A stretch of DNA of 64,000 bases from Halobaculum marinum (GTDB lineage Archaea > Halobacteriota > Halobacteria > Halobacteriales > Haloferacaceae): positions 1,302,001 to 1,366,000 of the forward strand of contig NZ_CP119989.1 of the NCBI RefSeq assembly GCF_029338555.1, written 5' to 3'. A program made the translations under genes and the position numbers. Of the stretch, positions 12,640-22,235 are shown piece by piece. The first letter of the stretch is position 1; each line of letters opens with the position of its first letter. The notes beneath the pieces are model-generated. The model was given only the letters and a program-made list of their open reading frames with translations, made no database searches and was not told the DNA's origin.

Positions 12640-12999
12640 ATGGCATTCGAACTGGGGGCGCTCGACGCCAAGGAATTGGTGTTGGTCGCCGTCGCACTCG
12701 TCGGGCTGATTCCGGTGGTCACACAACGGACAGAGGGGTCACGACTGTTCACACTCGGCTACGCGCTGTTGGTGTTCGGTGCAGTGGCCACGAACGCCGA
12801 ACACCTGTTCCTCGGCGAGGTGTTGGGCCTCCTCGAACACGCGGTCGGCATCGGCGCCGCCGGCCTGTTGTTCCTCGTCGCCGCCTACCGGCGTCGCCAG
12901 CGGATCGTGACGGGCAACGAACTGGGCGGTGGTGACGGCGACGACGAGTCGCCCAGCCGAGCAGACGCCGCCGTGACCGACGGTGGGGAGGTGGCCTGA
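12640..12999 (+). CDS. Small three-helix membrane protein coupled to a transducer
   Basis: A 119-aa membrane protein with three predicted helices (about residues 10-30, 36-56 and 63-83) and a hydrophilic, acidic C-terminus. A GTTATATCC box around 12611-12619 lies 22-29 nt before the ATG. Its TGA stop shares one base with the start of the transducer gene (TGATG), so both are made together. Helix spacing and loop lengths resemble the N-terminal membrane part of that transducer, suggesting a partner or accessory sensor subunit. No known family name can be given. Confidence 0.75.
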
Positions 13000-14567
13000 T
13001 GGTCGAACTCGCCACGCTGTTCGACCTCGTTGGCTTCCTCGGCTTCGTCGGCGCCGCCGGCTACGCCGTCCTCAACTACCGCGACGCCGAGGTGGAGTCC
13101 GGCTTCTGGGCGAACTACCTCCTCGCGTGTGTGCTGGGTGCCGGCTGGACCGGTGTCGTGTTGGCCGAGCACGCCGGCGTGCAGTGGTCGGTGCTCGACA
13201 CGCTGAGCGTGTCCCTGCTCACCGCGACCGTGGCGGCGTTCGCCGTCGGCACCTCCGGCACCCTGTCGGTCGTGAACGACTCGAAGGCCGCCCGCGCGGA
13301 CGCAGAGCGGGAGGCGTCGGCGGCACGCGAGGCGCGCCAGTCCGCCGAGACCGCTCGCGAGGAGTCCGAGGCGGCGCGCGTCGAGATGCGCGAACTGCAC
13401 GACGCGCTGACGGCGCGCGCGGAGGCGTTCGGCTCGTCGATGCGCCGCGCGGCCGACGGCGACCTCACGGTCCGACTCGACCCCGGCGACCGCGACGACG
13501 CACTCGCGCTCGTGGCGGAGTCGTTCAACGAGATGATCGACGACCTCGAAGCACTCGTCGCCGATGCCGGCGAGACCGCCACCCACGTCGCGACCACCGC
13601 CCAAGAGGTCGCCGCGGGCGCCGACCAGATCCGTACGGTCAGCGAGGGCGTCAGCGCGGACGTCGAGACGGTGTCGGCGTCGACCGCCGAGCAGGGGGAC
13701 CGCCTCCGCGAGGCCGCCGGCGAGATGAACCAACTGTCCGCCACCGTCGAGGAGGTTGCCTCCTCGGCGGACGAGGTGGCGACCGTCTCCCGGGCGGCTG
13801 CCGAGCGCGGCGAGGCCGGCAGCGAGTTCGCAGAGGACGCCCTCGACGAGATGGACGCCGTCGAGGAGCGTGCCACCCAGGCCGTCGACCAGGTCGAACG
13901 GCTGGAGAGCGAGGTCAGCGAGGTCGGCGCCATCGTCGAGACGATTTCGGGAATCGCCGACGAGACGAATCTGCTCGCGCTCAACGCCTCCATCGAGGCG
14001 GCCCGTGCGGGTGAGGAGGGCGACGGCTTCGCGGTCGTCGCCAGCGAGGTGAAGGCGCTCGCCGAGGAGGCGTCCGTCGCCGCCGCGGACATCGAGCGCC
14101 TCGTCGACGACATCCGCGCCGCCACGGACGGCGCCGCCGAGAACATGCGTGCCACCGGCGAGCAGGTGCGCGAGGGGCGCGAGACCATCGACGACGCGCT
14201 CGGCGCGCTGGAGGACGTCAGCGAGCGGATCGAGTCCGCCGACAGCGGCGTCCAGGAGATCAACCGCGCCACGGACTCGCAGGCGACCTCCACCGAGGAG
14301 GTGGTCTCGATGGTCGAAGACGCCGCCATCGCCGGCGAGGAGAGCGCCGACACCGTCGATGGCGTCGCCGCCGCCGCCGAGGAGGCGGCGGCCTCGACGG
14401 CCCAGATCTCCGACCGCGCCGAGGGGCTGTCGGGGCTCGCAGATCGGCTCACGGGTCGCCTCGAACAGTTCGAGACCGAGTCCGCAGACGGCCCCGACCC
14501 GACCGCCGACCCGTTCGACACACCGGCGGTCGCCGACGGCGGCGAGCGCCACGCTGGCGACGACTGA
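12999..14567 (+). CDS. Methyl-accepting chemotaxis-type transducer (HAMP + MA domain)
   Basis: A 522-aa signal transducer with about three N-terminal membrane helices (residues 5-95). A HAMP-like segment follows (about 140-190, around [20 protein letters not shown]), then a long cytoplasmic methyl-accepting coiled coil. The signalling hairpin reads [20 protein letters not shown], then [20 protein letters not shown]. There is no large extracellular ligand domain, so the stimulus is probably sensed in the membrane or by the co-encoded 119-aa membrane protein (1-nt overlap). It should signal to CheA/CheW, which are not encoded in this window. Confidence 0.9.
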
Positions 14568-17156: not shown

Positions 17157-18899
17157 ATGCGATTGGAGCAGTACTGGGGCGTCGGCCCGAAGACGGCCGA
17201 CACGCTCCGCGAGTCGCTCGGCGAGGAGGCGGCCATCGCGGCCATCGAGTCCGCCGACGTGCGCGCGCTCGTCGACGCGGGCGTCTCACGCGGGCGCGCG
17301 ACCCGCGTGCTCCGCCGGGCCAACGGGAAAGCGGGGATGGACCTGTTCGGGACACGCGACGCCCGCGAGGTGTACGACGACCTCCTCGACATCGCCGCCG
17401 GCTACGCCGTCACCGATCACGCCGCCGACCGTGTGCGCGTGCTCACGCCGCTGACGAGCGCCGAGCGGCGCCGCGAGCGCCTCGACGACGTGCTGGAGGC
17501 GCGCGACGCGTGGGCCGCACTCGACGACGATGAGCGCGAGGCCGTGTTGGCGGCGTTCGCCGAGTACGACGAGGCCGGCGGCACCGACCGCGCGGCGGTC
17601 GAGTGTGCGCTGGCGCTCCGGGAGGCCGGGCTCCGCGGCGGCACGTTCGCCGCGCTCGACGACGTCGACGAGACGGCGCTCCGAGAGGCGGCGGCGGCGC
17701 TCGCGGTCCTCACCGACGACGGGGTCGCGGCGGGCGCCGACGACCGACTGGACGCCCTCCGCGAGCGGGCCGACCGCGCCCGTGACCTCGCGGACTCGGC
17801 GTTCGACGTGGTGGAGACCGTCCGCGAGCGTGGCGCCCGCGACGCCGACGCGTTTCAGTCGGCGGTCGTCGAGTACGTCGCCGGGGAGACAGGCCTCGAC
17901 CGCGGCCGCGTGCGCTCGGCGGCGCCCGACGGCGCCGTCGACTCGGCGGACTTCGTCGGGTCGATGCTACGGACACTGGCGGACGAACTGGAGACGGAGG
18001 CCGCCGAGCGCGCCGAGACGGTCCGCAAGGAGTTGGAGGCGGACGTGGCCGCCGGTGGCGCCGACGTGGACGCGGTCGCGTCGGCGGTCGGCGACATCGC
18101 GTTCCTGCTGTCGCTGGCGCGGTTCGCCGTCGCCCACGACCTCGTTCGCCCCACGCTCGACGGCGACGGGGTCGCCGTGGCGAACGCGCGCAATCTCTTC
18201 CTCTCGGGCGACGTCCAGCCAGTCACCTACGGCGTCGGTGACCACGCGCTCGACATCCCCGCCCCGGCGGACGACCGCGTCGCGGTGCTGACGGGCGCCA
18301 ACTCTGGTGGGAAGACGACGCTGCTGGAGACGGTGTGTCAGGTCGTGACCCTCGCGTCGATGGGCCTGCCCGTCCCGGCCGACGCCGCCGAGGTCGGTCG
18401 ATTCGACACGGTCGTGTTCCACCGCCGCCACGCGTCGTTCAACGCGGGCGTGCTGGAGTCGACGCTGAAGTCGGTCGTCCCACCACTCGTCGGCGAGGGG
18501 CGGACACTGATGCTCGTCGACGAGTTCGAGGCCATCACCGAACCCGGCCGCGCGGCCGACCTGCTCAACGGCCTCGTCGAACTCACCGTCGACCGCGGCG
18601 CCGTCGGCGTGTACGTCACCCACCTCGCGGAGGACCTCTCGCCGCTGCCCGACGCCGCACGCGTCGACGGCATCTTCGCCGAAGGGCTCACCGCCGACCT
18701 CGACCTGCTGGTGGACTACCAGCCACGCTTCGGCGTCGTCGGGAAGTCCACGCCGGAGTTCATCGTCTCTCGGTTGGTCGCCAACGCCTCCGACCGCGCG
18801 GTCAGACAGGGGTTCGAGGAACTCGCCGCCGCCGTCGGCGAGGAGGCCGTCCAGCGGACGCTGTCGGACGCCGAGTGGACGACTGCGGACGGAGGGTAA
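17157..18899 (+). CDS. MutS-family ATPase with N-terminal helix-hairpin-helix
   Basis: A 580-aa DNA-binding ATPase. Residues 5-20 (QYWGVGPKTADTLRES) form a helix-hairpin-helix. A long helical, charged middle region resembles the MutS core/clamp. The C-terminal MutS ATPase has Walker A GANSGGKTTLLE (about 381), the signature region RHASFNAGVLESTLKSVV, and Walker B LMLVDEFEAITEPG (about 451). It lacks the mismatch-recognition domain and a Smr nuclease domain, so it fits the MutS2/MutS5-like archaeal group better than canonical MutS. A role in recombination or junction processing is inferred. It converges on the rhodopsin gene (18-nt gap). Confidence 0.87.
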   Translation: MRLEQYWGVGPKTADTLRESLGEEAAIAAIESADVRALVDAGVSRGRATRVLRRANGKAGMDLFGTRDAREVYDDLLDIAAGYAVTDHAADRVRVLTPLTSAERRRERLDDVLEARDAWAALDDDEREAVLAAFAEYDEAGGTDRAAVECALALREAGLRGGTFAALDDVDETALREAAAALAVLTDDGVAAGADDRLDALRERADRARDLADSAFDVVETVRERGARDADAFQSAVVEYVAGETGLDRGRVRSAAPDGAVDSADFVGSMLRTLADELETEAAERAETVRKELEADVAAGGADVDAVASAVGDIAFLLSLARFAVAHDLVRPTLDGDGVAVANARNLFLSGDVQPVTYGVGDHALDIPAPADDRVAVLTGANSGGKTTLLETVCQVVTLASMGLPVPADAAEVGRFDTVVFHRRHASFNAGVLESTLKSVVPPLVGEGRTLMLVDEFEAITEPGRAADLLNGLVELTVDRGAVGVYVTHLAEDLSPLPDAARVDGIFAEGLTADLDLLVDYQPRFGVVGKSTPEFIVSRLVANASDRAVRQGFEELAAAVGEEAVQRTLSDAEWTTADGG

Positions 18900-18917: not shown

Positions 18918-19706
18918 TTAGTCTGCTGTCGTGACGGGGTGGTCTGTCGCCGGGGCGGCGTCCTGACCGCCGATGGCATCGCCCGCACCCGGACCGTCGA
19001 CAGGCTCGGCCGTCAGCGTGCGCTCGAACACGCCCCGGTGTTCGTACACGACCCACGTGAACGGGACCTTCGCTGCCACGTCGAGGAACGTGATCAGCAT
19101 CACGGTTCCGAGCGTCGACACCAGCCCGAAGCCGGCGCCGCCAGCGAGCCAGACGACGGGGTACACCAGCCAGATGACGCTGCTTTGGTTGCGAAGCCGG
19201 AGGAACAGGCGCTCGCGCTCGGGCGTCATCTCGCCAGCGCTGCGCGGGTACACCCGGAACAGGACGACCATCGTGGCCGCGAACGCGACACAGGCGCCGG
19301 CGAACGCGGCCCACTTCACGGTCCCCTGCGTCGTCGTCGCGACCCAGCCGCCGGCGATGAACAGGCCGTCGAAGGTCGCCGCCAGCAGCATCCACTTGCG
19401 CTCCACGTCGACCACGTGGCCGACGTACCACACCATCACGGCGGTCGTGACGAACCAGTCCAGATACCGCGCCGCCTCCGCCTCGACGCCGCCGACGGAG
19501 AGGCGACCGACGCCCACCGCCATCGCGGCGTACGCGAGCGCGGCGAACACGGGGACGATCAGCAGGTATCGGAACTTCCCAGCCTCGGGGTCGAGCGTGT
19601 CGTCGCGGAGCAGCCACGCCACGACGGCCACGCCGACGAGCATGCCCACGGTCCCGCTGGCGAACACGAACGTCTCAATCGTGGCCGCATCCAGCCCGCC
19701 GATCAT
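18918..19706 (-). CDS. Sensory rhodopsin (SRI-like, divergent)
   Basis: A 262-aa seven-helix retinal protein. The Schiff-base lysine is K213 in LDVAAKVPF, with counter-ions D83 and D209. R80, T87, D113, W179, Y182, P183 and W186 match the bacteriorhodopsin retinal pocket. The proton-donor position of pumps (BR D96) is Y94, as in sensory rhodopsin I, so it is a sensor and not a pump. Segments such as [16 protein letters not shown] also resemble SRI. Oddities: the helix-C proline after TT is A89, and the SRI functional histidine in helix F (H166) is Q174. It overlaps the transducer stop by 4 nt, a classic htr-sop operon. Confidence 0.9.
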
Positions 19707-21292
19707 CGGCGATCACCTCCACTGGCGGTCCCGCCGTCGCCCATCGCGGCGGGCGTCGACCCCCTGGACTCGGCGACGACCGTGTCGGCGTCCCCGGTGT
19801 CCCCGCGCTTCACGCGCGACTCGCGGAGGTCGAACTCCGCGAGCACGTCGAGCAGGTCGTCCGAGCGGACCCGGAACGTCTCCGACTCCTCGACGACGGC
19901 GTCGACGGTCGTCGACTGTTCGGTCGCGGCGGCGTTGGCCTCGGCGGCGCGGTCGGCCGTCCGGTCGCTGTTCTCCGCGAGGTCTTCGATCGTCTCGGAG
20001 ACACCGGCGGCCGCGGACGCCTGTTCGTCTGTCGCGTCGCTGATCTCGCGGACCCCCTGGTCGAGGTCCTCGACGGCCACGGCGATGTCGTCGAGTCGGT
20101 CCACCGCCTCGGCCACCGTCGTCGACCCGTCGCTCACCTGCTCGCTGGTCGCCCGGATCGCCTCGACGGCCCGCTCGGTTTCCGTGCGCACCTCGTCGAT
20201 CATGCCGGCGATGGCGTCCGCGCGGTCGCCGGTGTCCTCGGCGAGTCCCTTCACCTCCTCGGCGACGACGGCGAAGCCGTCGCCAGCGTCGCCCGCATCG
20301 CCGCCGGCGCGGGCGGCCTCGATGCTCGCGTTCAGCGCGAGCATGTTCGTCTGCTCGGCGATGTCGCGAATGAGTTCGGCCGCCTCGGTGATGTCGGCGG
20401 TCGCCTCGTCGAGCGTCTCGATGCGGTCGACAGCCTCGGTCATCGTCTCGTCGACGTCGCCCATCGTCTCGATGGCGTCGCCCGCGGCGGCGCGCGCCTC
20501 CGCGGACGCGTCGGCGGCCTCGTCGGTTCGCTCGACGAGCGACTCCGTGGTCGCGGCGACTTCCTCGGCGGTCGCCGAGAGGTCAGCCGTCTCCTTGGCG
20601 CCCGTTCGGGCGGTCGCGCGCTGTTCGTCGGTCGCGGCGTCGATGCCGTCGGTCGCCGCGAGGACGTCGTCGGTTCGGTCGTCGATCTGTTCGGCGGCCG
20701 AGCGGACGTCGCCGGCACCGTCGGCCACGTCGCGTGCGAAACTGTCCACACGTGCGAGTGCGACCTCCAGTTCGCCGACGGCGTCGTTGAACGCCACGCC
20801 GACAGTCTCCATCGCGTCGTGCTCCCGGTCGACGTCGATCCGCCGCCGCAGGTCGCCGTCCGCGACGGCGCGCATCGTCTCGGCGTACTCGGTCGCCGTC
20901 CGCTGGTAGTCGTCCGCGAGCGACTGAGCGCGCGCTTCGGCGGCTTCGGCCTCCGTCCGCGCCTGGTCTGCCTCCTCGATCCGGGAGGCGAGCGACCGGC
21001 GCATCCGGTCGACGGAACTGTACACCCGCCCGAGTTCGTCGATTCGAGAGGTCCGGACCTCCACGTCGAGGTCTCCCCCGGCGATCGCCTCGGTCTGTTC
21101 TTCCAGTGTGCGCATGGACACGACGGTGTTCGTCCCGAGATACGCTCCCAACACGACCTGCCCCGCGGTCGCCATCAGTATCGTTCCGACGACGTTCCGC
21201 GTCACCAGCCCGTAGCCGACAGTCGCGCCCGTCGTGAGCGCGAAGCCGACCAAGAGCTTCACCGCGAAGCTGCGTCGAAGTAGTCGAAACAT
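19703..21292 (-). CDS. Sensory rhodopsin transducer (HtrI-like)
   Basis: A 529-aa transducer with two N-terminal membrane helices (about residues 9-31 and 35-57) and no extracellular domain, as in HtrI. Two HAMP-like segments follow ([20 protein letters not shown] and [20 protein letters not shown]), then the methyl-accepting coiled coil with hairpin [20 protein letters not shown]. From memory, the membrane and HAMP text aligns closely with Halobacterium HtrI. ATG 21292 is chosen because the longer frame would start with TTG, and a TTGATAC box lies 27-33 nt upstream. It should couple light absorbed by the rhodopsin encoded in the same operon to the CheA pathway. Confidence 0.9.
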
Positions 21293-21392: not shown

Positions 21393-22235
21393 CTACCCGA
21401 ACGCGCCGAGACTCGACTGGAGGTCGCGCTCGCTGGCCCCCTCCTCGAGTTCGTAGCCGACGAGGTCGCGCATGTCGACGGCGTACGTCGTGCCGGCGTT
21501 CTCCAGCACGAGCACCCGCCCCTTCGTCCCGACGACGGTCCCCGTCGCGAGCGTCTCAGCCACCGGTCGTTCCGTGAGGTCGAGGCCGTAGTCGAACGCG
21601 AACGACTCCGCGTAGTCGACGCCGGCGAGCAGACGGTCCCACGCGTCGTCGTCGACGGCGGTCCCGAGTCCCGCGACCTTCGTCGGCACGCGAACCCGAT
21701 CCACGAGTCCGTCCGCGTCCGGTGGCGCGACCGCGGGCGAGGCGTCGGGCCGCACCCGTTCCAGTCCGTGGGCGGCGATCGACGACTCGATCTCGCGAGC
21801 GATCCGCCCGTCGTCGACGGTCTGGAGGTGGATCGCTCGGTCGGCGCCCTGCTCGCGCAGTCGCGTGTCCAGGCGCCACTCGCGCGTCACGCCGACTTTG
21901 AACACGTCGGGGGCGAACGCCGCGACGTAGATGGCGTGGTCGTCGAAGCAGTCCATCTCGTCTTTCAGGCACGTCCCGGTACACCGCGCACACACCCACG
22001 TCGACCGGTGGTCGTCGCAGTACGGCGCCGTCGCGTTACCGCAGGCGACGTGACCGTCGTCGTGGACCGTCCCCGCACAGCGCCGATCGCCGAGGCGCCA
22101 CGACAGGTCGGTTCCCGGGTCGAGGGCGACCCGGTCGACCTCGCCGGTCGGCGACCCCGGCGGCGCCGACGGGTCGGGGTCGCCGTCGCTGACGAACAGC
22201 GCGCCAGACGGCGTGTCGTAGCCCACGACCTGCAC
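21393..22235 (-). CDS. DUF2797 family protein
   Basis: A 280-aa soluble protein. A cysteine/histidine-rich block resembling a zinc site spans about residues 50-95 (C-A-G-T, A-C-G-N, Y-C-D-D-H, then [16 protein letters not shown]). The family segment [20 protein letters not shown] follows. This matches DUF2797, whose function is not known; the Cys-rich part suggests nucleic-acid or metal binding. Start ATG 22235 is plausible but not backed by a strong box. The promoter-side region 22236-22431 is shared with the divergent subtilisin gene. Confidence 0.83.

Follow-up and report, generated by a model that had tools for sequence, protein, structure and literature searches.

Locus and host genome

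The window, by which we mean the whole 64,000-nucleotide stretch of Halobaculum marinum DNA analyzed (genome size, 3.5 Mb), encodes on its minus strand a transducer gene, htr, followed by an opsin gene, sop. The features of the locus and its immediate neighbors are as follows.

21292..19703, minus strand: htr, a 529-aa two-helix transducer assigned to the HtrI lineage, with HAMP and MCPsignal domains and without an extracellular domain
19706..18918, minus strand: sop, a 262-aa predicted sensory rhodopsin of the SRI superclade, with seven helices, K213, D83, D209, and Y94
19703..19706, minus strand: ATGA overlap of the htr stop and the sop start
19068..19070, minus strand: codon of K213, the predicted retinal-binding lysine (BR K216), with codons numbered from the sop start codon at 19706
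19185..19187, minus strand: codon of Gln174, aligned with SRI His166 (Gln in 8/8 clade members)
19281..19283, minus strand: codon of Phe142, aligned with BR145, the site of the second SRI-specific His
19440..19442, minus strand: codon of Ala89, aligned with BR P91, the helix-C proline of nearly all relatives; within the clade, only L007 and L008 share this Ala
21128..21139, minus strand: Htr residues 52 to 55, Leu-Gly-Thr-Asn, with Leu52 and Asn55 at HtrI Asn53 and Glu56
20279..20311, minus strand: lengthened hairpin-tip loop, Htr residues 328 to 338 (11 residues versus the usual 7)
21393..22235, minus strand: DUF2797 protein, upstream neighbor on the same strand, adjoining the pair in Halobaculum (context only)
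17157..18899, plus strand: MutS-domain-V-like ATPase, convergent downstream neighbor (context and divergence yardstick)

Both open reading frames and the 4-nt overlap were found as described in an earlier interpretation made from the letters alone (the sequence-only reading), and the ATG start of htr is kept in relatives. The same reading had described a two-helix transducer without an extracellular domain and a seven-helix opsin with K213, D83, D209, and Tyr94, and this description holds. Pfam searches recovered HAMP (E = 2e-12) and MCPsignal (E = 3e-37) in Htr, with no extracellular sensor domain, and Bac_rhodopsin (E = 4e-34) in Sop; no NCBIfam model matched any opsin scanned. The four opsin residues align with BR K216, D85, D212, and D96, respectively. 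The AF2 model of Sop has seven helices (mean pLDDT, 88), with SRII/HtrII complexes as its best PDB matches, and the low-confidence model of Htr (pLDDT 68) shows two N-terminal helices with a short loop and a long hairpin turning at residues 330 to 335. Neither a stable fold (z = 0.26) nor a terminator-like site was found 3' of sop, and a sigma-70 promoter scan is inapplicable, the host being an archaeon. A second MCP of the window (12999 to 14567, plus strand; 522 aa, HAMP and MCPsignal), about 4.4 kb from sop, has a standard 7-residue tip.

Seven other genomes keep the pair and its gene order, most of them with the same neighbors as well; the arrangement is therefore not due to chance. The genera carrying this subtype are, so far, only Halobaculum and Halobonum (Candidatus Halobonum tyrrellensis). 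The host genome has CheW- and CheA-type genes, 13 MCPs, several archaellin-family genes, and a Blh-type beta-carotene dioxygenase for retinal synthesis. Besides Sop, it encodes two opsins, a halorhodopsin and a BR relative that lacks the lysine; the window pair is therefore the only sensory rhodopsin found in its genome. A viral origin was rejected, the pair having no match in viral contigs, as was a plasmid origin, plasmid matches reaching only 37% (Haloarcula) and 31% (Deinococcus).

The lysine-less BR relative (locus L004, 5326 to 6063, minus strand; genome C1, ~224.3 to 225.1 kb) is closest to deltarhodopsin and has an open frame, with the retinal lysine replaced by Thr, D85 by Gly, D96 by Ala, and T89 by Val. 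It adjoins a lycopene-cyclase-like gene and a blh gene, and its dN/dS to relatives is ~0.4 versus 0.14 between two intact relatives. Lysine-less haloarchaeal opsins are an already known class (opsin-related proteins [ORPs]; PMC4915679), and they resemble Sop in often lying beside MCP transducers but differ in lacking the retinal lysine that Sop has; the L004 protein, however, is placed in the BR/deltarhodopsin branch. Four other Halobaculum genomes (L145, L147, L150, and L026) encode an MCP-linked SRII-like opsin with Leu for the helix-C proline (TTL), which is absent from the window genome. Candidatus Halobonum tyrrellensis has no flagellar system according to its genome paper; in its genome (G028, contig C8) we found an archaellin-family gene, further weaker matches, and CheW/CheA-type genes on one contig, and we accordingly dropped the idea of Halobonum as a carrier of the pair without motility.

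Phylogenetic placement and diagnostic residues

The opsin tree comprised 110 opsins, including BR, HR, deltarhodopsin, NpSRII, the 9wxr chain, and H. salinarum SRI, which matches a genome sequence at 100% over 239 aa. Sop falls inside an SRI superclade of 42 sequences (SH-aLRT 99) and, within it, belongs to an eight-member clade (SH-aLRT 99) that is sister to the rest of the superclade except one long outer row. In the transducer tree, 36/36 SRI-linked transducers group together (98), separate from the SRII-linked and other MCPs, and Htr is thus closer to HtrI than to a generic MCP, as had been proposed. In neither tree does the pair fall within the SRII groups, and it also lies outside the clade formed by the SRIs of Halobacterium and Haloarcula, to which it forms a sister branch; Sop is also outside the BR/HR pump groups and lacks the proton donor and release residues. 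The deep order outside the true SRI clade has moderate support (85 to 92). The deep order is concordant between careful trees of the opsin and the transducer, and the two genes, adjacent in eight genomes, have therefore been inherited together as one pair; the sequence-only reading had taken them to be probably one functional photoreceptor.

That reading had further called the pair SRI-like and HtrI-like. The trees support a sensory photoreceptor pair of the SRI/HtrI lineage; an identification with SRI itself is not supported, identity to the Halobacterium pair being only ~36/37% and characteristic residues being replaced throughout the clade. Sop retains the retinal Lys, the Asp counterions, and the aromatic box and has no pump proton donor, as befits a sensory rhodopsin. 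The SRI His166 position is Gln in 8/8 Halobaculum/Halobonum-clade opsins and His in all superclade rows tabulated outside Halobaculum/Halobonum, except the divergent L133. To our knowledge, all mutants tested at His166 of H. salinarum SRI disrupted phototaxis signaling. The BR145 position, to which His131 of Salinibacter SRI corresponds, is His in true SRIs and Phe in the eight-member clade. A review assigns a conserved His, His131 of Salinibacter SRI, to the SRI chloride site (PMC3274258). Sop and its two nearest relatives have in addition lost the helix-C proline found in SRI (TTP has become TTA); they also differ from SRI in having Phe at BR118, and they have Met at BR93.

On the transducer side, HtrI Asn53 and Glu56 (SINAAET) are confined to the partners of the true SRI clade. 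The corresponding stretch of Htr is AYLGTNT, and Leu and Asn occupy these two positions in 8/8 members of its clade. Three other superclade subgroups (L014, L041, and L039; L109, L042, and L108; L112 and L040) keep His166 in the opsin but lack HtrI Glu56 in the aligned transducers. Glu56 thus seems to characterize only the true SRI branch, and its loss need not alter the sign of the response. An equivalence of the Asn in this column with NpHtrII Asn74 was dropped, since the residue count from the known G83 contradicts it.

Among characterized systems, the pair resembles SRI/HtrI of Halobacterium salinarum (PDB code 9wxr, rhodopsin-chemotaxis protein chain), sharing its gene order, transducer architecture, Asp counterion, Tyr at the donor site, helix-G Pro (Pro215 in Sop), lengthened tip, and superclade in both trees. 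With SRII/HtrII of Natronomonas pharaonis it shares the overall fold, as the best structural match, and Phe at BR145, and the SRII-linked transducers examined mostly have Asn in the HtrI Glu56 column, as does Htr; however, Sop has Ala212 at the position of SRII Thr204, and the tip is 7 residues in nearly all SRII-linked transducers. SRM of Haloarcula marismortui represents another type of sensory rhodopsin and likewise has a transducer of its own, HtrM. HtrM is reported to lie downstream and to lack the methyl-accepting and signaling parts (PMC6450946), whereas the window transducer lies upstream and its domain is complete.

Signaling tip and opsin alleles

We measured tip length as the number of residues separating the conserved EAA from the conserved GFxVVA in the MCP hairpin. 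A tip of 8 to 16 residues, mostly Gly-rich and variable, is present in 31/37 SRI-superclade transducers (e.g., L113, L117, L114, and L008), versus 7 residues in the ~69 other haloarchaeal MCPs that were examined, with three exceptions (Fisher P = 2e-17, which is not a tally of independent events because the long tip is clustered on the tree). At least 6 changes in tip length are needed on the transducer tree, and in a Halorubrum-containing branch of SRI-linked transducers the tip is back at 7. H. salinarum HtrI, whose tip has 9 residues, was reported to bind both CheW proteins, like other membrane Htrs (PMC3579733), and a lengthened tip is therefore compatible with CheW binding. We found no mention of the lengthened tip of SRI-type transducers in the papers searched. 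A rhodopsin-unlinked MCP with a hydrophobic N-terminal half (L086, 1189 to 3177, minus strand; genome C1, ~260 kb) has a 9-residue Gly-rich tip.

The opsin has diverged differently from its neighbors. Relative to four Halobaculum genomes (G002, G004, G005, and G007), identity is 87 to 90% for the MutS-like protein and 86 to 88% for Htr versus 56 to 58% for Sop, with dS of 0.42 to 0.47 for htr and 0.64 to 0.79 for sop. The corresponding identities relative to G001 are 88, 70, and 61%, and those relative to Halobonum are 78, 80, and 77%; relative to G003, Sop is 83 to 87% identical. Its dN/dS relative to the two nearest relatives is ~0.2 to 0.3. Exchange of old opsin alleles, with htr remaining stable, explains these values better than fast change alone, and topology tests are suggestive. 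The opsin tree groups the window with G003 and Halobonum (support, 100/99); in topology tests, whose groupings were chosen after the trees were seen, this grouping is mildly rejected by MutS (P = 0.039) and not rejected by Htr (P = 0.17). That sop alone was replaced is therefore likely, not proven, and on the same two values a simple transfer of sop from Halobonum was set aside.

Predicted signaling and alternative readings

The pair is real and probably functional, and we estimate a probability of about three in four that it is a coinherited photoreceptor and dedicated transducer forming an early, separate subtype of the SRI/HtrI lineage, which mediates single-color phototaxis with a differing photocycle and perhaps a differing sign. 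The two genes would be made together; light would isomerize retinal on K213, and the resulting change in opsin shape would be passed to the two-helix transducer and through its HAMP domain to the CheA/CheW-binding tip, thereby biasing the archaellum. With taxis machinery and retinal synthesis genes present, phototaxis through the predicted pair is plausible. Because the residues tying SRI-HtrI to the attractant form and two-color behavior are absent, we expect a single-color receptor with a photocycle, and perhaps a sign, unlike that of Halobacterium SRI.

The alternatives differ in how much of this they retain. That Sop is a light-driven pump beside an MCP gene by chance is suggested by the BR-like counterions and is extremely improbable: Tyr at the proton-donor site, the lack of Glu at BR194/204, the position in the SRI superclade, and a transducer adjoining in 8/8 genomes contradict it, and the tree and residues together rule out a pump identity. 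Also very improbable is an ongoing loss of light function in Sop, of the kind that the BR relative of the same genome has undergone. The low opsin identity to the four Halobaculum species beside a well-kept Htr, and several pocket changes, including the loss of the helix-C proline, would fit such decay, but the Lys, counterions, and aromatic box are intact, the frame is open, dN/dS to the two nearest relatives is ~0.2 to 0.3, and between the allele groups dS too is raised, which fits old alleles rather than relaxed constraint.

An ordinary SRI-HtrI pair, giving an orange-light attractant and a near-UV two-photon repellent response with the missing residues compensated elsewhere, would account for the superclade, gene order, transducer architecture, Tyr94, and Pro215. 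We consider it improbable in view of the low identity and the loss of both SRI-specific His residues and of HtrI Asn53/Glu56 in 8/8 members. Changes at HtrI Glu56 and at SRI Asn165/His166 invert the response in Halobacterium, and changes at HtrI Asn53 restore it (review, PMC3274258). In view of these mutant reports and the lost residues, the SRI attractant/two-photon scheme should not be transferred to the window pair. They also raise the possibility of a sign-inverted branch in which visible single-photon light is a repellent and Gln174 and Asn55 favor the conformer favored by the inverting mutants, the His166 and Glu56 sites both being naturally changed here; yet single-site effects may not transfer at 36% identity into a wholly changed surrounding protein, and we hold this reading to be possible but doubtful. 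We regard a changed or inverted response as a reasonable hypothesis and nothing firmer. Somewhat more speculative is a composite in which a sign-inverted or otherwise rewired SRI branch has its receptor gene swapped among diverged alleles beside a constant transducer, with the long tip marking SRI-type photoreceptors apart from chemoreceptors.

On the preferred reading of a separate SRI/HtrI-lineage subtype, the pair bears on how one receptor signals both attractant and repellent responses, the understanding of which rests largely on mutants of one species. Because evolution has replaced the residues concerned in both partners while the pair was kept, the mechanism becomes testable with natural sequences. 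The lengthened tip, located where CheA and CheW bind, offers a second handle.
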